This document shows, one piece after another, positions 15,033 to 27,139 of a stretch of 37,802 nucleotides of DNA; positions within the stretch are counted from its first letter, which is position 1, and each line of letters begins with the position of its first letter. The translations under genes and the position numbers were made by a program. This stretch comes from an uncultured Ruminococcus sp. GTDB taxonomy: Bacteria > Bacillota > Clostridia > Oscillospirales > Acutalibacteraceae. Where the stretch lies: NCBI GenBank assembly GCA_902767845.1, contig CACXIV010000014.1:1-37802 (forward strand), in the 5' to 3' direction. The notes beneath the pieces are model-generated. The model was given only the letters and a program-made list of their open reading frames with translations, ran no database searches and was not told the origin of the DNA.

Positions 15033-15875
15033 TTGGCAAAAAAATGGACGGCGATAATCGAACCGCCGAAAAAAATTGTGGATCTTAAACTGAACGAGGT
15101 GTGGCGGTACCGCGACCTCATCTGGCTTTTTGTAAAGCGCGATTTTACAACGCGCTACAAGCAGACCATTCTCGGACCGCTGTGGTTTTTGATACAGCCG
15201 CTGTTTATCACGATCGCTCAGACCTTTATCTTCGGCAATGTCGCCGGGCTTTCGACCGACGGACTGCCGCAGGTGCTGTTTTATATGGGCGGCAACGTGC
15301 TTTGGCTTTACTTTTCGACCTGCCTGACGAGCACGTCGAACACCTTTAGGGGCAACGCGAGGCTCTTCGGAAAGGTGTATTTCCCGAGGCTCACTACGCC
15401 GATCGCCACGGCGATCTCGTCGCTGATAAACTTCGGGATCCAGTTTTTGATGTTCCTCGGCTTCATTTTGTTTTTTATCATCCGCGGCGCTAACGTTCAT
15501 ATCACATGGATCGCGGCGCTGACTCCGCTGATCGTGCTGCAAACGGCGATCCTCGGCGTAGGCTGCGGTATCGTTATTTCCGCGCTGACAACAAAGTACC
15601 GCGACCTTCAGGTGATGGTGAGCTTCGGCGTTATGATCTGGATGTACCTTTCTCCGGTCATCGTATCCGGCTCCTCGCTTTCCGAAAAAACATATGTGTT
15701 GATGATGCTCAACCCCGTATCCCCGGCGATAGAGCTTTTCCGCAGCGGCTGGCTCGGCTCGGGAACGACGCCGTTTTTGTTCTGGGGAATAAGCTGGGTT
15801 GTGTCGATAGCGGTGTTTTTGCTGGGCACAATTCTGTTCAACAGGATAGAAAAGACGTTTATGGATACGGTATAA
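15033..15875 (+). CDS. wzm: ABC-2 type polysaccharide export permease (Wzm/TagG-like)
   Basis: This 280-residue membrane protein has a cytoplasmic N-terminus containing LIWLFVKRDFTTRYKQTILG, typical of the Wzm/TagG/RfbA permeases, and six hydrophobic segments between about residues 50 and 270. It would form the membrane channel that moves a lipid-linked polysaccharide outward with the following ATPase. TTG start at 15033 after GGAGGA. It is 10 bp upstream of its partner gene. Confidence 0.92.
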   Translation: MAKKWTAIIEPPKKIVDLKLNEVWRYRDLIWLFVKRDFTTRYKQTILGPLWFLIQPLFITIAQTFIFGNVAGLSTDGLPQVLFYMGGNVLWLYFSTCLTSTSNTFRGNARLFGKVYFPRLTTPIATAISSLINFGIQFLMFLGFILFFIIRGANVHITWIAALTPLIVLQTAILGVGCGIVISALTTKYRDLQVMVSFGVMIWMYLSPVIVSGSSLSEKTYVLMMLNPVSPAIELFRSGWLGSGTTPFLFWGISWVVSIAVFLLGTILFNRIEKTFMDTV

Positions 15876-15885
15876 CGGAGGCAGC

Positions 15886-17166
15886 ATGGACGAAAAAGAT
15901 ATTGCGGTCAAGATAGTTCACCTTAAAAAGAAATATCGCCTCGGCGTTATCGGCGGCAGGACCCTCGGAGGAGAGATCCAGAGCTGGTTCGCCAAAAAGC
16001 GCGGAAAAGAAGACCCTAACGTGCAGATCGGAAGGGACGCGGTCGATACCAACGAGAGCTTTTGGGCGCTCGACGATATCAACCTGGTAATAAAAAAGGG
16101 AGAGCGCCTCGGCATAATCGGGCGCAACGGCGCCGGCAAATCGACGCTGCTAAAGATATTCTCCCGGGTAACGGCTCCCACCGAGGGCAAGATCTACGTC
16201 GACGGACGCGTTTCGTCGATGCTCGAGGTCGGAACGGGCTTCCACGAGGAGCTCACCGGCAGGGAGAACGTATATTTAAACGGCGCGATCCTGGGCATGA
16301 CGCGCGCCGAGATCGACAGAAAGATCGAAGACATCATCGAGTTCTCGGAGTGCAGAAGGTTCATTGACACCCCGGTAAAAAGATATTCCTCGGGAATGAC
16401 GGTAAAGCTCGCGTTCGCGATCTCGGCGTTCCTTGACTCTGATATTCTTGTAATGGACGAGGTGCTCGCGGTCGGCGACGTAAAATTCCAGCAGAAATGC
16501 CTCGGGAAAATGAGCGACGTTTCTCAGGATGAGGGCAAGACGGTGCTCTATGTCAGCCATAACATGGAGACTATCCGTCAGCTCTGCGACAGGTGCATAG
16601 TGCTCGACCGCGGCAAGCTTATTTATGACGGCGAAGTGGAAGAGGCTATCTCTATCTACGCGGACATAAAGAGGGGCGATATCGCCTCGTTCACGGATCT
16701 CAGAAAAGCAAAGCGCTACCGCAGCGTAAGGCTTGTTCGTCCGGCGTCCTTTGTGTCGGTGGAGTTTCTCGGCAGAAAGGAAAACCTGTTCAAAAACAGC
16801 GAGACGGTGTCGGTCAGGATAATCATTGAATCCGAGCTTGAATATAAGGACGCCAAGATCCGCTTCGGTTACAACGATATTTATGAGCGCAAGGCGGCGT
16901 CGTCGTTCTGCGTGGATATCGGAGATATCGGCCAGGGCAAAAACGAGCTCGTGCTCGACGCGTGCTTTGACGGACTTGTCGGGGGGAGCTACCGCACCGA
17001 GATGGTTCTGTTCATCTCAAACGATTTCGGCTCGGTTCGCGAAATAGATATAATCCCCGAGGCGTTTTACTTTGAGATAACCGAAGATAACAAGCAGTTT
17101 GAGTGGAATACGATGAGGTGGGGTGCCGTAAGGTTAAAGGATATGTCGTGCCGCAGCCGGAAATAA
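15886..17166 (+). CDS. wzt: ABC polysaccharide export ATPase with C-terminal carbohydrate-binding domain (Wzt)
   Basis: The protein has 426 residues. The nucleotide-binding domain spans about residues 1-260: Walker A GRNGAGKST near 79-87, signature YSSGM at 167-171, Walker B ILVMDE at 187-192 and the switch H225. An extra domain follows (about 275-426), rich in beta strands, as in Wzt proteins that recognise the non-reducing end of their polysaccharide. It is the last gene of the operon. The C-terminal domain implies export of a defined, capped chain rather than generic teichoic acid export. Confidence 0.92.
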   Translation: MDEKDIAVKIVHLKKKYRLGVIGGRTLGGEIQSWFAKKRGKEDPNVQIGRDAVDTNESFWALDDINLVIKKGERLGIIGRNGAGKSTLLKIFSRVTAPTEGKIYVDGRVSSMLEVGTGFHEELTGRENVYLNGAILGMTRAEIDRKIEDIIEFSECRRFIDTPVKRYSSGMTVKLAFAISAFLDSDILVMDEVLAVGDVKFQQKCLGKMSDVSQDEGKTVLYVSHNMETIRQLCDRCIVLDRGKLIYDGEVEEAISIYADIKRGDIASFTDLRKAKRYRSVRLVRPASFVSVEFLGRKENLFKNSETVSVRIIIESELEYKDAKIRFGYNDIYERKAASSFCVDIGDIGQGKNELVLDACFDGLVGGSYRTEMVLFISNDFGSVREIDIIPEAFYFEITEDNKQFEWNTMRWGAVRLKDMSCRSRK

Positions 17167-17282: not shown

Positions 17283-18815
17283 ATGAGAAAGATCATAATA
17301 ATACTGTGTACGGTTTTCGCCATGGTGTGCGCGCTGCTGGCGGTGATCTCGCCGGATTATCTGTCAATGATAGTCGTGGCGGTGATGACGCTGATAATTA
17401 CCGCGGGCTTTGTTTTCGGACTGATACCGAACCTTATGTTCTGCGCCGGACTGAGGGAGGGTCAGGAGAGCATTGAACGCGTGCGCGAGGTTCACGCGGA
17501 CAACGTGTGGACGGCCGTAACGAGCGTAAAACCTTTTTTCAGACAAAAAAAGCTCGACTCACTGTTTGACGCCTACCTTGAGAACGTCAAGGATCAGGAG
17601 GAAAAGGGAGTTGTAATAAGCGATATCGAGGACGTTATCAACGACGATATCCTCGCGATCTACAGCTGGCGCGGAGCCGTGATCCAGGTCGCGGGCATAT
17701 TAACGGCGCTGGGACTGCTCGGCACCTTTATGGGACTCGTCACCGGTATCAGCTCGGTAACCTTCACATCGGCGGAGGCGACTATGGAGAGCATCGAAAA
17801 CCTGCTCGCGGGTATTTCGACAGCGTTCTACACCTCTATCGCCGGCGTAATCCTGTCTATCATGTTCAATATCGCATACCGCCTTGTATGGAACATAATG
17901 CTCAGGGAATGTTCGCTGTTCAACGAGAAGTTCCATCTGTATATCCAGCCGACGGCGGATGAGCAGATCAGGGCGAACCAGTACCTGAATACCGAGAAGA
18001 TGATCCAGAATCTCGAGGTGCTCCGCGCGAACAGCAGCCTCAGCCTGAGCCGCGGAACAAACGATCCGGCTCAGGAGCAGAGGATGATGATAGATATCCT
18101 GTCCGGTATGCGCCACGGCGAGTTCACATTCGTGCTTGAGCCGGTATGCAGCCTTGCCGACCGCGGGATCATCAAGGCGGAGACCAAGTTGCAATGGAAC
18201 CACCCGGTTCTTGGCACGGTTCAGCCGTCGGTATATATGCCGATCGTTGAGTCGGACGGATTTATCGCGAAGCTCGACCAGTATATCTGGGAGCAGATCT
18301 GCGAAACCGTACGCGACTGGCTCGACAACGGAGCGCATCCCGTTCCCGTTGTGCTGAATATCCGCAAAACCGACCTTCTCGCGCTCGACGTGTACGAGAA
18401 TATCCGCGAGCTCGCGGAGGAGCTCGAGCTTGAGCCGAGGTATATCGAGGTCGCTATCGACGAATCCGCCTACGCTATCTGCCACGAGGAGGCAAAGAAG
18501 GCGGAGAAGAAGTTTATCTCGAGCGGCTACAAGGTAACCATCGCCAACTTCAGCGGAAACCTTGTAAAGCTCGGCGAGACCGACGCGGACGAGATCTGTC
18601 TTGACCTCGGCGCGCTTGACGACGACAGCGAGATCGAGAGCATCTTTACCCAGGCGATGAACGCCAAGCTGAACATGACCTGCGAGGGCATATCCTCGGC
18701 GAAGCTTCTTGCCGACGTTAAGCGCTACGGCTGCACTAACGGACGCGGACCGCATCTCTACTCCGAGATGTCGCTTGAAGAATACGAAAAACTAATGAAA
18801 TACAGATCAAAATGA
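17283..18815 (+). CDS. MotA/TolQ/ExbB-type ion channel protein fused to a degenerate EAL domain
   Basis: The protein is 510 residues from the ATG at 17283 (AGGAGG 6 bases upstream; a TTG at 17268 is also open). Residues 1-55 hold two membrane segments. Residues 90-215 are a MotA/TolQ/ExbB domain with segments near 133-157 and 178-203, including ALGLLGTFMGLVTGISS and LLAGISTAFYTSIAGVILS. Residues about 275-505 align with EAL phosphodiesterases: AETKLQWNHPVLG, VVLNI, EVAIDESA, CEGIS, YGCTNGRGP. Key catalytic positions are lost (EAL to ETK, DDFG to ANFS, KID to CLD, metal-site Glu to Ala), so hydrolysis is unlikely; c-di-GMP or protein binding is possible. It pairs with the MotB-like gene 13 bp downstream. 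Confidence 0.85.
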   Translation: MRKIIIILCTVFAMVCALLAVISPDYLSMIVVAVMTLIITAGFVFGLIPNLMFCAGLREGQESIERVREVHADNVWTAVTSVKPFFRQKKLDSLFDAYLENVKDQEEKGVVISDIEDVINDDILAIYSWRGAVIQVAGILTALGLLGTFMGLVTGISSVTFTSAEATMESIENLLAGISTAFYTSIAGVILSIMFNIAYRLVWNIMLRECSLFNEKFHLYIQPTADEQIRANQYLNTEKMIQNLEVLRANSSLSLSRGTNDPAQEQRMMIDILSGMRHGEFTFVLEPVCSLADRGIIKAETKLQWNHPVLGTVQPSVYMPIVESDGFIAKLDQYIWEQICETVRDWLDNGAHPVPVVLNIRKTDLLALDVYENIRELAEELELEPRYIEVAIDESAYAICHEEAKKAEKKFISSGYKVTIANFSGNLVKLGETDADEICLDLGALDDDSEIESIFTQAMNAKLNMTCEGISSAKLLADVKRYGCTNGRGPHLYSEMSLEEYEKLMKYRSK

Positions 18816-18828
18816 GTAACGCTTTATT

Positions 18829-20457
18829 ATGAGAAAAAATAAACGGAGTTACGGCGAGGAAAGCTACTGGAAAACCTCTACCGACGTAATGGCGGGCGTG
18901 CTGCTTGTAATATTGCTGATCGTGATGCTCCTGCTGCTGTATCTCTCGCAGATACATCAGGGCGAATCGACGTATATGAATACATACGATACGCTCGATA
19001 CGTTCAACGGAGTCAACGAGACCCAGCCCACCACATACCTTGATAATAACGACGGCACGGATTCCGATCACCCCTACCGCGACAGCAGCGGAGGCGGAGG
19101 CGGAGTGCCGAATCCCGGCGAGGATAATCCCGACACCGGCAAGGAGGACGAGGGTCACGACAAGACCGCGGTGTTCGTTACCGTGGTCGACGAGGAGACC
19201 GGCAACGTCATTAAAAAGGAAGGCATCCTGTTTGAGCTTTACGCCGACAAAAACGCTGTAGGCGGACTGCAGACACTGCACACCTACTATCCCGATAAAG
19301 TTGAATATAAGCAGTACCAGACGACAAAGAACGGAACCTTTTACCTGCCCGAGAAGATCCCGAGGGGCTGGTATTCCTTCCACAACCTTGTCGCGCCCGA
19401 GGGCTACGGACTTGCCGAGAACTTTGACTTTGAGGTCAACGAATCGCTCGACTGGCCTGATCCGTTCCTTGTAAAGATCCCGCTGTCGCCCAGCAAGAAC
19501 AGGATCTATATCCGCTGCGTCGACGCCGATACCAAGGAGAAGATCCCGGCTCAGGCGTATGATGTTTTCGCCGCGGAGAACATTGTCACCCTCGACGGCA
19601 CCATGCGCTACAAGAGCGGTCAGAAGGTCGGCACCATCACCTGCGACGCAAACGGCTTCGGCGCGAGCGAAAAGCTGTATTTGGGCAAGTATTACCTGTC
19701 GCAGACGGTCACCGCGCCGTATTACGCGCGCTATCTGTCGCGGATCGACGCCGAGGTCAAGCTGACTAATAACGAGAACGAGGCGATAATCGTTCAGTGC
19801 AACAAGACAAGGGCTGAGTTCAGGCTCACCGACGAATACTCCGGCAATCCCGTCAAGGGCGCGGTTTACAGCGTCACCGACAAGGAGAGCATGACGACCG
19901 GCGAAAACGGCAACATAGTCATAACCGACCTCGATAAGGATAAAACCTATACCGTCAAGCTTGAGAGCGTTCCCGAGCCGTACATGATCTCTGCCGACGC
20001 GCTGAGCTTCTCTGTCGATAAGGACGGACTGATCAGCGGCGAGTCAAGCCCGGTATATGAGCAGACGGCATACATGACGAGGCTTTCGGTCGACGTCAAG
20101 GACATCATCTTCAAAAACAGCATTTCCGGCGTTGATCTTACCTTGTATGATTCCAGGGACGCCGAGGCTGACGTATGGAACGCCTACGGAGAAGAGAGGG
20201 TGATCGAGGGACTGGTTCCCGGTCCGTATTACCTTGTCGTCGGAGACAACGAATCCGACAGAACAAAGATAGACGTCAAGGATACCGCCCAGATGCAAAG
20301 ATCCGAAACATATATTTGGACGCTATGGGATACGATCCTTGTGATCGCTTCGGTAGTACTATTTGCTATTGTCGTATTCATGATAATACGGTTGATCCGT
20401 TACAGAAGAAAGAAGAAGGCTAATGCACAGCAAAAAGACAGTATTGAAAAAGAGTGA
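18829..20457 (+). CDS. MotB/TolR-like stator partner with Cna-B/SpaA-like ectodomain and second membrane anchor
   Basis: The protein has 542 residues. The N-terminus is basic, then SYWKTSTDVMAGVLLVILLI runs into one membrane helix (about 20-41). An aspartate (D19) just before the helix matches the ion-binding Asp of MotB/TolR/ExbD. A low-complexity linker (42-110, with SGGGGGV) leads to a beta-rich region (111-490) that reads as about four Cna-B/SpaA-like modules, for example VFVTVVDEETGNVI and AEFRLTDEYSGNPVKGAVYS. A second helix (about 501-523) and a basic tail RYRRKKK end the protein. There is no OmpA-type peptidoglycan domain and no LPXTG signal. The module count is approximate. Confidence 0.72.
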   Translation: MRKNKRSYGEESYWKTSTDVMAGVLLVILLIVMLLLLYLSQIHQGESTYMNTYDTLDTFNGVNETQPTTYLDNNDGTDSDHPYRDSSGGGGGVPNPGEDNPDTGKEDEGHDKTAVFVTVVDEETGNVIKKEGILFELYADKNAVGGLQTLHTYYPDKVEYKQYQTTKNGTFYLPEKIPRGWYSFHNLVAPEGYGLAENFDFEVNESLDWPDPFLVKIPLSPSKNRIYIRCVDADTKEKIPAQAYDVFAAENIVTLDGTMRYKSGQKVGTITCDANGFGASEKLYLGKYYLSQTVTAPYYARYLSRIDAEVKLTNNENEAIIVQCNKTRAEFRLTDEYSGNPVKGAVYSVTDKESMTTGENGNIVITDLDKDKTYTVKLESVPEPYMISADALSFSVDKDGLISGESSPVYEQTAYMTRLSVDVKDIIFKNSISGVDLTLYDSRDAEADVWNAYGEERVIEGLVPGPYYLVVGDNESDRTKIDVKDTAQMQRSETYIWTLWDTILVIASVVLFAIVVFMIIRLIRYRRKKKANAQQKDSIEKE

Positions 20458-21853
20458 TATAATTTACCATCTCCTTAAAGGCTGGCGTATAATCCTGCTG
20501 TTTACCGTGCTGGGATTCATGCTGGGCGTCGTTGCGATCGGCGCCGGATATATCCGCGGAGAGATGGCGAAGGAATACAAGATCACCTCCTCGGTAGTTG
20601 TAGTGGCGCTCAACGAGAAGGATCAGTTCTCGTCAAAAACCAACGTTCCCTACAAAACCGACGTTGATATTGCCAGAGATATCGCCGAGGACGCGAAATA
20701 TATAATCAAGAGCCAAAAGAACATGGAGAGGGTTATCGACTCGCTCGACCTCAAGGGAGTTTCTCCCGGAATGATCTCAAGCAACCTCTCCCTGAGCAGG
20801 TACGGCGATACCGAGATCATAGAGCTGTCGCTGCTTTGGCGCAGCGAGCGCGAGGGTTTGCAAATCATGGAGGCGATCAACAAAAGCTCAGATTCCCTCC
20901 TGCTCGAAACCATGAGGATAGGCAGGATCAACGTGATAGACCAGCCAAAGGCGAGCTTTATCGTCGGCGGAAATATCGGTATTACAACGTGGTTCTACGC
21001 GGCTCTGGTTGGTTTTATCGCAGGCTTGCTTTTCTGCCTGATCAGGTTCGTGTTCGGCGCGACAATGATAAACAGCTCGGATTTAGAGGATATCTTCGAG
21101 ATAGATCTGCTCGCGACGCTGCCGTATGATAAGCGGTTCGCGTACTCCAAGCAGTTCCCCGACAGCGACTCGCCGATCAGCGACGACCTCAAATCGCTGT
21201 CGCATATGCTGATAAACCGCATGGACAGATACGGCTACAATAAGATCTATATAACCTCGCCCTCGCGCATGGAGGGAAGAACATGTGTTGTTGCCAACGT
21301 GGCGCTTTATCTGGCGCAGCTCGGAAAAAAGACCCTGCTTATCGACTGCGATCTGGCTAACCCTCAGCTCGGCGCAATGTTCTTTGACGACCTAAAGTAC
21401 GAGCAGACGCTCAACGCCCTGTACAGGGGCGATTCCGACAAGCTCGACGCCGTTTTGCATGTTAACGGCTGCCTTGACATTTTGCCGGTCATTCTTGAGA
21501 AGGTGCCCGAGAACTTCAACGACGCCATGCTCGGCGCGCTGGCTGACGTTATGAAGGGCTATGACTATGTGCTTATCGACGCCGCTCCCGTCGGCTCCGA
21601 CGCGGAGGTGCTCAGGCTCAACGACATTTCCGACGCGGCTCTGTTCATCGTAAGGAGCGACTTCTCCACGATCGAAACGATCAAGCACTCCGTCCACAGG
21701 ATCAATAAGTCCGATATCCCGATCATCGGCGGCGTGTTCAACGCCTCGAGCTCGTGGAAGGACGCTTTCAAAAAAACCAGAAAGTATGCCGATAATCTCG
21801 ACAAGGCGGTTTCCAAACGCCGCAAAAAAGAGAGAAGAGGCAAACAGGCGTAA
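20423..21853 (+). CDS. Wzz/BY-kinase-like polysaccharide co-polymerase with altered Walker A
   Basis: The protein has 476 residues, with membrane helices near 22-44 and 189-211 enclosing an extracytoplasmic Wzz-like segment. The cytoplasmic ATPase domain (about 260-445) resembles CpsD/Wzc-type tyrosine kinases. LLIDCDLANPQLG is the Walker A' and DYVLIDAAPV the Walker B. The Walker A reads SPSRMEGRTC where PGEGKT is usual, so the catalytic lysine is an arginine (R286). The C-terminus is basic with one tyrosine (Y455) and no tyrosine cluster. It may be a pseudokinase or ATP-binding scaffold. ATG at 20423 with AAGAAGG; it overlaps the upstream gene by 35 bp. Confidence 0.82.
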   Translation: MHSKKTVLKKSDIIYHLLKGWRIILLFTVLGFMLGVVAIGAGYIRGEMAKEYKITSSVVVVALNEKDQFSSKTNVPYKTDVDIARDIAEDAKYIIKSQKNMERVIDSLDLKGVSPGMISSNLSLSRYGDTEIIELSLLWRSEREGLQIMEAINKSSDSLLLETMRIGRINVIDQPKASFIVGGNIGITTWFYAALVGFIAGLLFCLIRFVFGATMINSSDLEDIFEIDLLATLPYDKRFAYSKQFPDSDSPISDDLKSLSHMLINRMDRYGYNKIYITSPSRMEGRTCVVANVALYLAQLGKKTLLIDCDLANPQLGAMFFDDLKYEQTLNALYRGDSDKLDAVLHVNGCLDILPVILEKVPENFNDAMLGALADVMKGYDYVLIDAAPVGSDAEVLRLNDISDAALFIVRSDFSTIETIKHSVHRINKSDIPIIGGVFNASSSWKDAFKKTRKYADNLDKAVSKRRKKERRGKQA

Positions 21854-22060: not shown

Positions 22061-24967
22061 TTGAGAATCATAGTAAATAAATTAAGGGATGATACTCCCA
22101 TGTCAAAGTATCTGTCTCCGTTGGCGGCGTGGGCGCTCTCGTTTGGCTGCGCGGTAGGATGGGGCGCGTTCGTAATGCCCGGAACAAACTTCCTGCCCGT
22201 CGCGGGTCCGCTGGGATCGGCGATCGGACTTGTTGTCTGCGCGCTTATAATGATAATCATCGGAGTGAACTACTCCGCGCTCATGGCAAAATATCCCGGA
22301 CCCGGAGGCTCGTACACCTTCGCCTCAAAGCTGCTCGGCAGCGATCACGGCTTTATCTGCGCGTGGATGCTCCTGCTGACCTACACCGCCGTTATTTGGG
22401 CGAACGCCACCGCGCTGTCGCTGATCGTCAGATGTGTTTTCGGAAATGTTTTCTGCTTCGGCTTTTCATATAACTTCGCGGGGTACACCGTTTATTTCGG
22501 CGAGGTGCTTTTGTCCTTCGCGCTGTTGGCGGTAATGACTCTTATCTGCGCCGTCCGCAAAAAGGCGGTCAAGTGGTTCCAGATCGTCATGGCACTCGTT
22601 ATGTTTGTCGGGATCGCGCTGTGTTTTATCGCCGTGACAATCCACCGCGGCGGACTTAGCGGTATCAACCCTCCGTTCAAAGACGGGAGCTCTCCGGCGA
22701 TCCAGGTTTTCGGGATAGTGATCCTCGGACCGTGGGCGTATCTCGGCTTTGAGTCTATCTCTCATTCCTCGGGAGAATTTGGTTTTTCTTCAAAAAAGGT
22801 GCTGCCGGTTATCATCTTCGCGATAGCCGCCTCGGCGCTTGCCTACATAATGCTTGTTTTCTGCGCGTCAATGGCTACGCCCGACGGTTACTCAAGCTGG
22901 ATCGACTACATCAAGTCGCTTGGAAACTTCGACGGTATCAACCGGCTTCCGACCTTCAACGCGGCTGAGCAGGCAATGGGAAAGCCCGGGATATATCTGC
23001 TCGGCATATCGGCGTTTTGCGGTATATCAACGGGCGTAATAGGTAATGTTACCGCGGTTTCGCGCCTGATATACGCTATGTCGGACGACGATATTATGCC
23101 AAAGGCGTTTTTAAAGAAGAATAAAGACGGAGTCCCGTGGGTAGCGGTGGTTTGCGTAATGGGATTATCGTGCGTGATCCCGCTTTTAGGCAGAACGGCT
23201 ATCGGCTGGATTGTCGACATCACCACCGTCTGTGCTGTCATAGTATTCGCGTATATTTCCATCAGCGCCTTTAAGCTCGGCAGAGAGGAAAAGAATATCT
23301 CGCGGCAGGTTTTCGGTATCACCGGAGCCGCCATCTCGCTCGCGTTCGCCATGTACTTTTTGGTTCCGGACATAAACGCGAGGGGCAAGCTCGCCGCGAC
23401 CTCTATCCTTGTTTTGATCGTGTGGAGCGTTCTCGGTTTACTCGCGTTCAGGTTCATCATCAAGCGCGACAAAGCTCGGCGCTTCGGCAACAGCCAGGCA
23501 GTGCTGATGATACTTTTCCTGCTTATAATGATAGTGTCCATAACGTGGATCCATCAGACCACGGTCGATCAGACCGTAGACACCACCTCCGACATAGAGG
23601 CGCATTATTCGGCGCTGCTCGAGGAAAAGGGAATAGACTCGGAACAGGATGTCCGCGACGACTATATCATGCTGCGGATCAATGAGATGGCGAGCGCAAT
23701 CAGGAAAAATATCTATATCCAGGACGGACTGATCCTCTGTTCGCTCGGAATACTATTCAGCATTTTCGGGATTACCAAAAAGCGCGAGAGAAAGATGGAC
23801 GCCGAAAGGCTCGCCGCGGAGGAAAAGAACAGGGCAAAGACCGTTTTCCTCTCAAATATGAGTCACGACATCAGAACGCCGCTCAACGCCGTGACCGGAT
23901 ACACGGCGCTCGCCCTTGAGGAGGAGAACCTTCCCGACAATATCCGCGATTACCTTGAAAAAATAGACTACAGCGGCAAGCACCTTTTGTCGCTGATAAA
24001 CGATATACTCGACATGACACAGATCGAAAGCGGAAAGGTCGAGCTTAGAAACGAACCGTCTGATTTTTACGATATCGTCGACGAGACCGTAGGATTGTTC
24101 GCTACCCAGATGAAAACAAAGGGAATAGAGTGTAATGTGGACTACGGCGGCGTTTCGGACAGATATATCATCTGCGACAAAAACCGTGTGAGCAGGATAT
24201 TGCTCAATCTTGTGTCAAACGCGTACAAGTTCACTCCCTCGGGCGGCAGGATCGACGTTGTCCTCAGGCAAAACGGCACCGAAAACGGAAAGGGCTGCTA
24301 TGAGCTAAGCGTCGCCGATACGGGTATCGGCATGAGCCCGGAGTTTTCCGAGAAGCTATTTGTCGCCTTTGAGCGCGAACGCACGCAGACAATGAGCAAG
24401 GTGCAGGGAACCGGTCTGGGCATGACTATCTCCAAAACTCTTGTTGAGCTGATGGGCGGCAGGATCATGGTCGAGACCGAACAGAACAAGGGCACAAAGT
24501 TCACGGTGTATTTGCAGCTTCCGCTTACCGACGCCGACAGCGTTGTCAAGCCGGAAGAGGTCAATAATAAATGCGCTCACAATTTTGAAGGTCAAAGAGT
24601 TCTTCTTGTTGAGGACAATCCCATCAACCGCGAGATCGCGCTGGAGATCCTCAGACGCGGCGGCTTTGAGGTTGATTCCGCGGAGAACGGCAGGGAGGCG
24701 GTCGATATCATCAAGGACTCCGAGCCGGATAAATACAGCGTTATCCTTATGGATATCCAAATGCCCGTAATGAACGGCTATGACGCCGCTAAGGAGATCC
24801 GCGCGCTCGGGGACGAAAGGTCGCTGATCCCGATCATCGCGATCACCGCAAATACATTTGAGTCCGACCGAGCCGAAGCCGCCGACGCGGGAATGAACGC
24901 TCATGTCGGAAAACCCTACGATCCGGAGGTGTTGTTCAGGACGATCGAAAAAGTTACAAAACGCTGA
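22061..24967 (+). CDS. APC-type amino-acid permease fused to a hybrid histidine kinase
   Basis: The protein is 968 residues from the TTG at 22061 (GGAGGGGAG just upstream; the ATG at 22100 is an alternative). Residues about 10-480 are an APC-superfamily transporter: LSFGCAVGWGAFVMPGTNF and MAKYPGPGGSYTF are typical of helix 1 and the following loop. An extracytoplasmic segment (about 500-548) and one more helix come next. Then comes a kinase: H-box SHDIRTPLNAV with H602, N-box LVSNAYKFTPSGG, ADTGIGM and GTGLGM. A receiver domain follows (VEDNPINRE, MDIQMPVMNGYD with D898). It probably senses an amino acid or its transport and passes phosphate to the HPt and regulator encoded downstream. The ligand is unknown. 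Confidence 0.88.
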   Translation: MRIIVNKLRDDTPMSKYLSPLAAWALSFGCAVGWGAFVMPGTNFLPVAGPLGSAIGLVVCALIMIIIGVNYSALMAKYPGPGGSYTFASKLLGSDHGFICAWMLLLTYTAVIWANATALSLIVRCVFGNVFCFGFSYNFAGYTVYFGEVLLSFALLAVMTLICAVRKKAVKWFQIVMALVMFVGIALCFIAVTIHRGGLSGINPPFKDGSSPAIQVFGIVILGPWAYLGFESISHSSGEFGFSSKKVLPVIIFAIAASALAYIMLVFCASMATPDGYSSWIDYIKSLGNFDGINRLPTFNAAEQAMGKPGIYLLGISAFCGISTGVIGNVTAVSRLIYAMSDDDIMPKAFLKKNKDGVPWVAVVCVMGLSCVIPLLGRTAIGWIVDITTVCAVIVFAYISISAFKLGREEKNISRQVFGITGAAISLAFAMYFLVPDINARGKLAATSILVLIVWSVLGLLAFRFIIKRDKARRFGNSQAVLMILFLLIMIVSITWIHQTTVDQTVDTTSDIEAHYSALLEEKGIDSEQDVRDDYIMLRINEMASAIRKNIYIQDGLILCSLGILFSIFGITKKRERKMDAERLAAEEKNRAKTVFLSNMSHDIRTPLNAVTGYTALALEEENLPDNIRDYLEKIDYSGKHLLSLINDILDMTQIESGKVELRNEPSDFYDIVDETVGLFATQMKTKGIECNVDYGGVSDRYIICDKNRVSRILLNLVSNAYKFTPSGGRIDVVLRQNGTENGKGCYELSVADTGIGMSPEFSEKLFVAFERERTQTMSKVQGTGLGMTISKTLVELMGGRIMVETEQNKGTKFTVYLQLPLTDADSVVKPEEVNNKCAHNFEGQRVLLVEDNPINREIALEILRRGGFEVDSAENGREAVDIIKDSEPDKYSVILMDIQMPVMNGYDAAKEIRALGDERSLIPIIAITANTFESDRAEAADAGMNAHVGKPYDPEVLFRTIEKVTKR

Positions 24968-25019: not shown

Positions 25020-25892
25020 ATGGATAATTTTGTAAGATCAAGCAGAAAAAAACGAAGGGTTTTGATGGTCGACGACGAGCAGATAAACCGCGAGCTGCTC
25101 GAGGCCATTTTATCTTTTAACTATGATGTTGACAGCGCGGTAAACGGCAAGGAGGCTATGGATATGCTCCGCGCCGCCGAGGAGCCGTACTCGCTGCTGC
25201 TGCTCGACCTGCTAATGCCGGTAATGAGCGGCTTTCAGGTGCTTGAGGCGTGCAAGGAAGACGAAGAGCTCGCCAAAATACCGATCATCGTAATGACGTC
25301 CGAAAAAAGCGCGGAGGTTCGCAGCATCAAGCTGGGCGCGGACGACTTTATCACCAAGCCGTACAGGATGCCTGAGGTCATTTTGGCAAGGTGCGAGCGG
25401 ATCATTGAGCTCAGCGAGGAACGCGCGCTGATCCGCGATCTCGAAAAAGATAAGCTTACCGGGCTTTATAAAGAGGATTTCTTCTTTGCCTATATCCGAA
25501 GAATGGAAACCAATTCGAGGCGGAGGAGAGACGCTGTTGTTTTAAGGGTAGAAGGCTTTAAGGATATCGAAAAAACCATCGGAACAGAAAAGACAAACCT
25601 GATGCTCAGAAAAATCGCGGACTCCATAAAAGCCGAGGTCTCGGTTTCAAAGTGGATGGGATGTTATTCGGGCAGCGGCGTATTTTTCGCCTACTGCAAT
25701 CACAGGGACGACTATGAGGATTTGATCGGAAATACCCGGCGCGCCGTCTCCGAACAATTCGGGGACTTTGCGCTGAAGGCGGGCGTATACGAAAAGGTGG
25801 ACAAAACCATTGATCCGGAAGTATGGTTTGAACGCGCCGGCTCGGTGATCGCCGATATTGCCGAAGGATCCTGCACAGCAAAATATCAATAA
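25020..25892 (+). CDS. Response regulator with receiver and degenerate GGDEF domain
   Basis: This 290-residue protein has a receiver domain (about 13-128) with D18/D19, phosphoacceptor D63 in LLDLLMPVMSG, T93 and K113. The second domain starts DKLTGLYKEDFFF (144-156), the usual GGDEF entry. At the active-site position it reads YSGSGVFF instead of GG(D/E)EF, and the domain is short (about 145 residues). Diguanylate cyclase activity is therefore unlikely; it may be an output or binding domain. AAGGAG precedes the ATG at 25020. It lies 52 bp after the hybrid kinase gene and just before the HPt gene, which suggests a phosphorelay. Confidence 0.85.
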   Translation: MDNFVRSSRKKRRVLMVDDEQINRELLEAILSFNYDVDSAVNGKEAMDMLRAAEEPYSLLLLDLLMPVMSGFQVLEACKEDEELAKIPIIVMTSEKSAEVRSIKLGADDFITKPYRMPEVILARCERIIELSEERALIRDLEKDKLTGLYKEDFFFAYIRRMETNSRRRRDAVVLRVEGFKDIEKTIGTEKTNLMLRKIADSIKAEVSVSKWMGCYSGSGVFFAYCNHRDDYEDLIGNTRRAVSEQFGDFALKAGVYEKVDKTIDPEVWFERAGSVIADIAEGSCTAKYQ

Positions 25893-26320: not shown

Positions 26321-27139
26321 TTACTGTATTTTTTTGCCGCATTTGGTGCAGAAAAACGCGTCGGGCAGGAGCGGAGCTCCGCATGCAGTGCAAAAGCGCG
26401 GAGCCTGAGTATTCTGCGGAGGAACTTGATTGGGTCTTGGCTGATTGTACTGCGGAGGAACTTGATTGGGCCTTGGCTGATTGTACTGCAGAGGCGCCTG
26501 GTTGGGTCTTTGCTGATTGTACTGCGGTGGCGCCTGGTTGGGCTGGGGCTGATTGTACTGCGGAGGCGCCTGGTTGGGTCTTGGCTGATTGTACTGCGGA
26601 GGCGCCTGGTTGGGCTGGGGCTGATTGTACTGCGGAGGCGCCTGGTTGGGTCTTTGCTGATTGTACTGCGGTGGCGCCTGGTTGGGTCTTGGCTGGTTAT
26701 ACTGCGGAGGCGCCTGATTTGGTTGCGGCTGATTAACGGTCGTCGGACTCGCCATGCCTGCGCTGATCTCCTGAGAGGTGACGTTGTTTTCATACTGCAA
26801 AAACAGGTTTACGTCGACCTTTGTGATAACGCCCTGAACATGCAGCAGTCCGTTTACGAATACGGTCAGATCTCTGGCGTGAGCCTTGTAGCGCGCGCCG
26901 TAAGCCTGAACGATAGTGTATCTCAGGTTTACCGCGGTGCCGCTTTGATACGGCATAAAGTGGATCGTCAGCTTACCGCCGTTCATGTTGTATTTAAAAG
27001 TAAAGTTGAGCGCGAAGCTGATGCTTTTACCGCTGTCAATTGTACAGTCTTTTCCGAATTTACCCTTTGCCGCCTGAATAAAAGCGTCCTGAACCGCTGT
27101 CAGCGGAGCTTCGTAGTAGTAAACCAAATCTCTTCTCAT
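26321..27139 (-). CDS. Zinc-ribbon protein with Pro/Gln/Asn-rich 12-residue repeats
   Basis: The protein has 272 residues in three parts. Residues 1-125 form a mixed alpha/beta domain of unknown family (YYYEAPLTAVQDAFIQAA, then SFALNFTFKYNMNGGKLTI). Residues 136-243 are nine copies of a 12-residue unit of the type NQPRPNQAPPQY. Residues 244-272 form a zinc ribbon with C250, C253, C264 and C267 (FCTACG and FCTKCG). No signal peptide or membrane segment is seen, so it should be cytoplasmic. GGAG lies before the ATG at 27139. I do not recognise a function. The N-terminal domain might be a START/SRPBCC-like fold, but this is a guess. Confidence 0.8.
   Translation of the reverse strand: MRRDLVYYYEAPLTAVQDAFIQAAKGKFGKDCTIDSGKSISFALNFTFKYNMNGGKLTIHFMPYQSGTAVNLRYTIVQAYGARYKAHARDLTVFVNGLLHVQGVITKVDVNLFLQYENNVTSQEISAGMASPTTVNQPQPNQAPPQYNQPRPNQAPPQYNQQRPNQAPPQYNQPQPNQAPPQYNQPRPNQAPPQYNQPQPNQAPPQYNQQRPNQAPLQYNQPRPNQVPPQYNQPRPNQVPPQNTQAPRFCTACGAPLLPDAFFCTKCGKKIQ
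26411..26734 (-). repeat. Nine tandem 36-bp coding repeats
   Basis: This is an in-frame array of nine 36-bp units encoding NQ(P/Q)(R/Q)PNQ(A/V)PPQY variants. Units alternate between a few near-identical versions, which suggests recent slippage or unequal crossing-over. The last units are the most diverged (VPPQN). Confidence 0.92.

Follow-up and report, generated by a model that had tools for sequence, protein, structure and literature searches.

Motors of the stator type are known in flagella, in the TonB/Tol systems, in gliding and in Zorya. In flagella, the stator is placed under c-di-GMP control by a separate protein, YcgR, which acts on MotA. EAL domains may also serve as receptors rather than as enzymes; LapD and FimX are non-catalytic EAL receptors of this kind.

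A 2025 survey of MotAB homologues describes A subunits that carry extra domains, e.g., DUF3450 and DUF2341; a search of its main text for words beginning with 'EAL' returned none (PMC12505986), and no mention of EAL was found in the accessible part of a 2025 study of Tol/Ton force transducers. According to the available sections of another report, PdeB of Lactobacillus acidophilus has a degenerate EAL domain, is encoded by the last gene of the exopolysaccharide-linked gts operon, and binds c-di-GMP through its EAL domain with a Kd of 4.9 uM (PMC6123363). In Myxococcus, the TolQR-type motor of the AglRQS-Nfs machinery is described, in the excerpted text, as moving a surface glycan, namely that of the spore coat (PMC3858216). 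In topical searches of the open-access PMC literature, titles and opening lines of abstracts showed no description of a MotA/ExbB-EAL protein, or of a cassette like the one presented here.

The locus in question lies in a stretch of 37,802 nucleotides from an uncultured Ruminococcus sp., referred to below as the window. Its relevant features are:

15033-15875, plus strand: membrane protein, by appearance of the ABC-2 exporter type, preceding the ATPase gene
15886-17166, plus strand: ABC transporter ATPase directly 5' of A; best NCBIfam likeness is to the TagH teichoic-acid exporter, below cut-off
17283-18815, plus strand: gene A, the A subunit; channel domain at about residues 1-250, linker 247-260, EAL fold at about 262-510 with a degenerate c-di-GMP pocket
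18829-20457, plus strand: gene B, the B subunit; MotB/ZorB-like N-terminal helix, linker 46-108, SpaA/pilin-type beta stack, second hydrophobic helix 499-541
20423-21853, plus strand: gene C, Wzz/BY-kinase-like; two apparent membrane helices and a P-loop NTPase; overlaps the end of B
22061-24967, plus strand: amino-acid permease / hybrid histidine kinase / receiver fusion, 3' of the cassette
25020-25892, plus strand: response regulator that lacks an EAL domain and whose GGDEF fold is degenerate; a candidate for partner to the pseudo-EAL domain

An ion-channel subunit and an EAL domain in one polypeptide

Gene A is a single uninterrupted frame of 510 codons plus a stop, with an ATG at 17283 just downstream of AGGAGG and the stop at 18813-18815; its product has 510 residues. 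A preliminary description of this DNA had reported one frame running through both domains with neither stop nor frameshift, and this is what we find. It had also proposed that a MotA/TolQ/ExbB domain and an EAL domain are joined in one chain. Both Pfam profiles indeed score above their cut-offs, MotA_ExbB at residues 91-209 (37.3 bits against 22.9) and EAL at residues 275-491 (90.8 bits against 31.3).

The single-chain AlphaFold model of A consists of a helical channel part and a barrel (mean pLDDT 83.2, pTM 0.49), joined by a linker at residues 247-260 with a pLDDT below 50. The predicted helices, at residues 2-21, 26-69, 130-157 and 164-220, are compatible with a MotA-like four-helix topology; in this topology the C-terminal part of A, and with it presumably the EAL domain, would sit in the cytoplasm. 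The barrel resembles solved EAL domains (Foldseek; 3n3t_B, E 1.9e-14, TM 0.84 by target), so that profile and fold agree that the C-terminal half is EAL-related, contrary to the doubt that the preliminary description had allowed for. Sequence comparison of the channel half gives matches to the ZorA structure 8qyh and to 8vvn, which is a protein with a MotA/TolQ/ExbB domain. Thr148 and Thr184 are invariant in 47 aligned sequences; we take these to be the channel threonines known from ExbB. The fusion is the sole MotA_ExbB match in the window's assembly. Between the EAL part of A and that of an 85% identical relative (L094), dN is 0.091 and dS is 1.07; the EAL domain of the window's clade is still under purifying selection.

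Distribution and origin of the fusion

A query with the whole protein returned ordinary EAL proteins and one channel fragment, and the fusion seemed to be unique; a query with the channel half alone overturned this notion. With the latter, 19 of 161 genomes in a sample of the genus match, the window's own included, and 16 of these carry the fusion, which in G119 is interrupted by a contig end. The other matches are a channel without EAL (G102), a broken copy (G152) and a fragment of only 32 residues (G027). In a sample of the order, 5 of 394 genomes match, again including the window's own; two of these matches are fusions that come from a different family. When named genomes were scanned, 74 loci emerged, 62 of which (L094-L155) are relatives of the fusion at 35-85% identity, with record titles that refer to Ruminococcus, Faecalibacterium, Blautia, Eisenbergiella, Brotaphodocola, Christensenellaceae, Lachnospiraceae and other Clostridia. 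No relative was found in a scan of viral contigs, and among plasmids none of 1307 matching records covers 80% of the query, the best 8 of the 1307 having been inspected.

The alignments used for the structural comparisons hold 47 rows (A4) and 36 rows (A5), truncated and near-duplicate loci being left out. All 47 aligned A sequences match both Pfam families (E <= 0.001), which argues against the local fusion artefact considered in the preliminary description. In a quick tree, which carries a long-branch warning, 57 fusion EALs separate from ten reference EALs with a support of 99.9. Because the fusion EALs group apart from the references, the fusion looks like a single event. The transfer of a response regulator's EAL domain onto the motor was also considered, and is not supported; the references from which the fusion EALs stand apart include regulator EALs.

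Two states of the c-di-GMP pocket

Sixteen EAL positions, in the numbering of P0001, were scored against ten reference EALs from the same bacteria in which all 16 are intact. The comparison covers 59 of 63 rows, sequences shorter than 440 residues (L104, L141, L147 and L154) being left out. In the window's A, the EAL motif reads ETK: E300 is kept and Leu is replaced by K302; the Arg of ExLxR is replaced by Q304. Both aspartates of DDFG are replaced (A421 and N422), as are the Lys of KID (C439), a metal-site Glu (A391) and the Gln of QGY (R488), and the pocket Tyr is also gone; E300, N359, E394, D441 and E468 are retained. The EAL alignment thus bears out the catalytic losses listed in the preliminary description, namely the Leu of EAL, both DDFG aspartates, the KID lysine and a metal Glu. 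The window's A retains neither the residues of an active phosphodiesterase (ExLxR, DDFG, K-D and the metal or catalytic Glu) nor those with which receptors of the LapD/FimX type bind (ExLxR, Lys and Gln).

The wider family is divided in this respect: 38 of the 59 scorable members have kept the pocket and 21, the window's among them, have lost it. All 38 pocket-kept members have ExLxR, the Asn and the first Asp of DDFG, and none has the second. The Q, the Lys and the Gln are each present in 37, with one sequence (L149) ending before the Lys, and the Asp of K-D in 32. The Glu positions, with the metal-site Glu kept in 22 of the 38, are less conserved (E265 in 22, E268 in 21, E352 in 29). Among pocket-lost members, residue counts cover 20 of the 21 rows: Leu and Lys are found in none, the first DDFG Asp in 2, the second in none, the E of ExLxR in 8, the Arg in 10 and the Asp of K-D in 18.

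The pattern in the pocket-kept members is that of a binding, non-catalytic EAL receptor, and its residues support the prediction that these members bind c-di-GMP. They might instead be slow phosphodiesterases, so that the motor subunit itself would be a c-di-GMP sink, given that most pocket residues are retained in 38 of the 59 members. Against this, the DDFG aspartate that is missing in 38 of 38 is, in the accessible text on PA3825, a ligand of metal M2 (PMC5301497), and E265, E268 and E352 are variable; we regard an enzymatic role as quite unlikely.

On a tree of the channel columns, built from 59 of the 63 fusion rows and 6 others, the pocket-lost rows form one group of 22, including L104, with support of 100/100. 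They also form one group of 20 rows on the EAL tree, with support of 100. The truncated L104 was assigned to the pocket-lost rows by reading its gene rather than by script. An earlier clade test on 21 pocket-lost rows without L104 had failed (p 0.002), which we think is due to the omission of that row. One assembly (G173) contains two diverged copies of the cassette (L055 and L069), both pocket-lost. Since the other members hold the canonical state, we infer loss of the pocket in the window's clade rather than gain elsewhere. The proposal that a c-di-GMP receptor is built into the channel subunit finds support, as judged from residues, in the wider family (38 of 59 scorable members), but not in the window's own protein, whose clade has lost the pocket. 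The loss of the binding site in the window's lineage suggests that the motor has been re-wired to another control.

Supply of c-di-GMP and the neighbouring response regulator

The window's assembly, which is 87% complete, contains no EAL domain besides that of the fusion, and GGDEF is matched there only by the degenerate domain encoded in the window, which lacks the GGDEF motif. Across the family, a GGDEF protein (E <= 1e-9) is encoded in the genome for 32 of 33 pocket-kept rows, compared with 10 of 18 pocket-lost rows (Fisher 0.0005, with kinship ignored; the tree holds one independent pair). Two further pocket-lost genomes, including the window's, have only a weak GGDEF match, and G072 (100% complete), G155 (97%) and G073 (91%) lack any GGDEF match, the fusion being their only EAL protein. 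The absence of GGDEF is not specific, however, because it was also seen in six of six hand-picked genomes of the genus that lack the cassette. An intact GGDEF or HD-GYP motif occurs in the two nearest upstream frames at 9 of 33 pocket-kept loci and at 0 of 16 pocket-lost loci.

These data bear on whether the window's EAL domain could still be a c-di-GMP receptor, through a non-canonical pocket, with ion flow gated by c-di-GMP here too. The fold is intact, the five residues named above are retained, and clear GGDEF proteins accompany 10 of the 18 pocket-lost rows. Nevertheless, the Leu and Arg of ExLxR, both DDFG aspartates, the Lys, the Gln and the Tyr are lost, and the residues that remain are not fixed in the clade, as the counts of 8 for E and 10 for Arg among 20 rows indicate. 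The only GGDEF match in the window's assembly lacks its motif, and three genomes have no match at all. A receptor of this kind thus appears to be very unlikely in the window's protein.

A different signal may come from the response regulator encoded 3' of the cassette. In 35 cassette-free genomes of the genus, the strong match to this regulator (E <= 1e-48) is a frame of at least 390 residues, mostly of 550-620, the shorter ones being in G127 (390) and G023 (439, on a 3.3-kb contig); in the four such regulators that were examined, the EAL part scores 131-145 bits. Of the 12 cassette genomes in the window's clade, 10 have an EAL-less frame of 281-332 residues as their best match, as against 0 of the 35 cassette-free ones. 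In G119 and G165 the regulator is longer, at 528 and 548 residues, and its EAL part scores weakly (41.7 and 50.9 bits, respectively). Loci with a weak EAL in this regulator are L058 16853-18469 and L176 6508-8091. The regulator gene shares its contig with A in 7 of the 12 clade genomes and with B in an eighth (G119); a full-length paralogue is present elsewhere in 5 of the 12. Among cassette genomes of the next clade, G064 has only the long form, and G108 a broken short one. From this co-occurrence, a split GGDEF-EAL pair is possible, i.e., a dead GGDEF on the regulator and a dead EAL on the motor, and the regulator is perhaps the partner of the motor's EAL domain.

The product of the gene at 22061-24967 is a transporter-type sensor kinase. 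Further downstream, the minus-strand frame at 26321-27139 encodes many near-identical repeats of the QPxPNQAPPQYN type and C-terminal, zinc-ribbon-like CxxC pairs.

The partner genes B and C

Genes A, B and C form a cassette in this order; among the window and the 62 relatives, A is followed by B in 58 of 63 rows and by C in 55 of 63. Where B and C are each a single frame, the gaps are of 120 bases or less. In L104, L105, L124, L149 and L154 the contig stops at A or no more than 41 bases from it, and in L110 and L121 it stops inside B. In L102, which lies on a short contig (L063), the B frame stops early and a glycosyltransferase-like frame comes after it; the genome (G107) has the remainder of a B gene on a different contig. 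B is split in L107 and C in L146. In G152 (L072 9725-12907, L141), stops or frameshifts interrupt both A and B. Among the 161 genomes of the genus, every one that has a long B match also has an A match; in G067, where A is on a short contig, a B match is absent. In G102 (L071 5267-9173), relatives of B and C accompany an A protein that lacks the EAL domain, and the EAL domain is therefore dispensable to the cassette in that genome. The G102 channel sits on a long branch of the MotA tree, which is compatible with either gain or loss of the EAL domain.

The B subunit has an N-terminal helix in which Trp14 and Asp19 are invariant among the 36 aligned sequences, presumably as in subunits of the MotB/ZorB/ExbD type; that is, each of these 36 proteins has a membrane-helix aspartate of the kind expected of the channel's partner. 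Pfam finds SpaA in the window's B (71.5 bits) and in 36 of 36 aligned members, in place of an OmpA or peptidoglycan-binding domain, neither of which is detected. In the model (pLDDT 82.0), the beta domains resemble Gram-positive pilins and adhesins, and residues 46-108 are a low-confidence linker rich in Gly and Asp. The helix at 499-541 is hydrophobic in its first part; such a second membrane helix is unusual, and would be odd for a freely turning axle.

Gene C resembles co-polymerases and their kinases, at scores that are mostly below curated thresholds: eps_fam, a curated tyrosine-autokinase profile, scores 65.6 bits (NCBIfam cut-off 108) and a CspC-type chain-length N-terminus 40.9 bits (cut-off 296), and AAA_31 is above its Pfam cut-off. 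Pfam Wzz scores 18.8 bits against 25.5 in the window, and is found at E <= 0.001 in 5 of 17 members. In the Walker A motif, EGK is changed to EGR in the window. EGK is present in 28 of 34 readable pocket-kept rows and in 7 of 17 pocket-lost rows; the Lys is Arg in 6 of the former and in 10 of the latter, the window included. The C tail in the window, read by eye, has no Tyr cluster; the C protein of L071 has one. Because its scores are below the NCBIfam autokinase cut-offs and the Walker Lys is replaced by Arg, C may not be an active kinase.

The resemblance to ZorA and ZorB raises the question of whether the cassette is a Zorya-like anti-phage motor. In profile searches A is similar to ZorA and the first helix of B to ZorB (a PADLOC scan of A, B and C gave a weak ZorB match at B 3-56), and 8qyh and 8vvn match the channel half. 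However, all ZorA scores are under the curated NCBIfam cut-offs (the best being 49.1 against 100 bits), Pfam finds SpaA but not a peptidoglycan-binding domain in B, the third gene is usually Wzz/BY-kinase-like, and the neighbours lean to polysaccharide genes. On profile cut-offs and gene partners we reject membership of Zorya, and consider an anti-phage role highly improbable.

Genomic setting and candidate load

The window's cassette comes after glycosyltransferase genes and the TagH-like exporter ATPase. Of the 11 closest regions that were examined (L055-L065), 9 have a relative of this ATPase upstream. A census of neighbours was made on the 62 loci minus 8, which were on short or broken contigs or were a second copy. 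It covers 91 of 93 upstream and 43 of 44 downstream frames, L144 being dropped as a near-copy of L143; these frames are mechanical ORF picks rather than curated genes. The most frequent families upstream are ABC_tran (9), sugar transferase (6), ABC2_membrane (6), GGDEF (5) and HD domains (5), and those downstream are VanZ (11), Wzy_C (5) and Glycos_transf_1 (4); many frames belong to other families or to none. Surface polysaccharide is the best-supported candidate load and, because the neighbours are mixed, this link rests mainly on C. The architecture and residue losses given in the preliminary description stand; the partner genes and the polysaccharide setting were not mentioned there.

That description had also drawn a comparison with the flagellar stator, i.e., with YcgR and MotA. 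This does not carry over: of the 29 genomes that were tested, 26, including the window's, have no FliG (FliG_C), and the three that do have it are the hosts of L115, L128 and L145. A flagellar load is thus unlikely in most of the tested hosts, and B has no OmpA domain.

The motor could also drive a surface appendage, adhesion or gliding through the arm of B, with polysaccharide as the track rather than the product. The fold of B is pilin-like, and Myxococcus AglRQS serves both gliding and the movement of spore-coat glycan, according to the available text (PMC3858216). Conversely, the constant partner is co-polymerase-like, and the most frequent neighbour families include no adhesin or track gene; we regard such a role as unlikely.

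Proposed mechanism

The reading that we favour, with moderate confidence, is that A and B, together with C, constitute a proton-driven motor of the stator type that energises or gates the assembly or export of surface polysaccharide, with the EAL ring acting as a c-di-GMP receptor in most members and as a protein-docking module in the window's clade. The motor would have an A5:B2 composition and be driven by protons, as suggested by its family, the invariant threonines and the aspartate. A would be the channel subunit; B would contribute the aspartate in the membrane and, outside the cell, a pilin-like arm that the second helix anchors in the membrane. This second helix suggests that B is anchored while A turns, or that the motion is limited. 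Five cytoplasmic EAL domains per motor would form a ring for control and coupling, and the load, going by gene order, would be C or the exporter.

In the pocket-kept members, c-di-GMP would, as their residues suggest, switch the EAL ring; this would also be the ancestral control. In the window's clade, a protein signal may have replaced c-di-GMP, with the EAL fold kept as a docking module that the adjoining pseudo-GGDEF response regulator might read. We tentatively picture a c-di-GMP-gated proton motor in a polysaccharide machine of gut Clostridia in which, in one lineage, the dead GGDEF of an EAL-less regulator docks onto a dead EAL ring, and so links an amino-acid-sensing kinase to the motor; as a whole, this picture is possible though somewhat doubtful.

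If the favoured mechanism is true, a second-messenger receptor within a motor chain, next to a co-polymerase-like partner, would extend the range of loads and switching modes of such motors. It would also suggest that the proton-motive force feeds into the assembly of capsule or teichoic-acid-type polymers in common gut bacteria. The family is a natural before-and-after series, with members that have the c-di-GMP site and a clade in which the site was lost and the domain kept; the re-wiring of a receptor is therefore directly testable.

Comparison with known systems

In contrast to the control of MotA by YcgR, the EAL domain is here covalently part of the channel subunit. To our knowledge, none of LapD, FimX and PdeB is fused to an ion-channel subunit, and we know of no EAL fusion or SpaA arm in AglRQS-Nfs, whose likeness to the present system is one of role only, its host being diderm. 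PdeB, a Gram-positive degenerate EAL protein linked to exopolysaccharide, is a parallel to the pocket-kept group, whereas the window's clade has lost the binding residues. LapD and FimX, both named in the part of PMC5301497 available to us, resemble the pocket-kept group in that the binding residues are kept and the catalytic site is broken.

The generic ion transporters (ExbBD, TolQR and AglRQS; 'GIT' in the accessible text of PMC12505986) share the A/B pair, the MotA_ExbB domain, the Asp in the helix of B and a non-flagellar role. They differ from the present system in that A here has a C-terminal EAL domain, B has SpaA repeats and a second helix, a Wzz/BY-kinase-like gene comes next, and the hosts are Clostridia. 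In Zorya, ZorA aligns with the channel half and ZorB resembles the first helix of B, but here the scores are below the ZorA cut-offs, SpaA replaces the peptidoglycan-binding domain, and the gene partners are others. Each domain of A is known on its own. Undescribed, as far as we could search, are the joining of the two in one chain, a SpaA-type B subunit that has a second helix, and a co-polymerase-like protein as constant partner.
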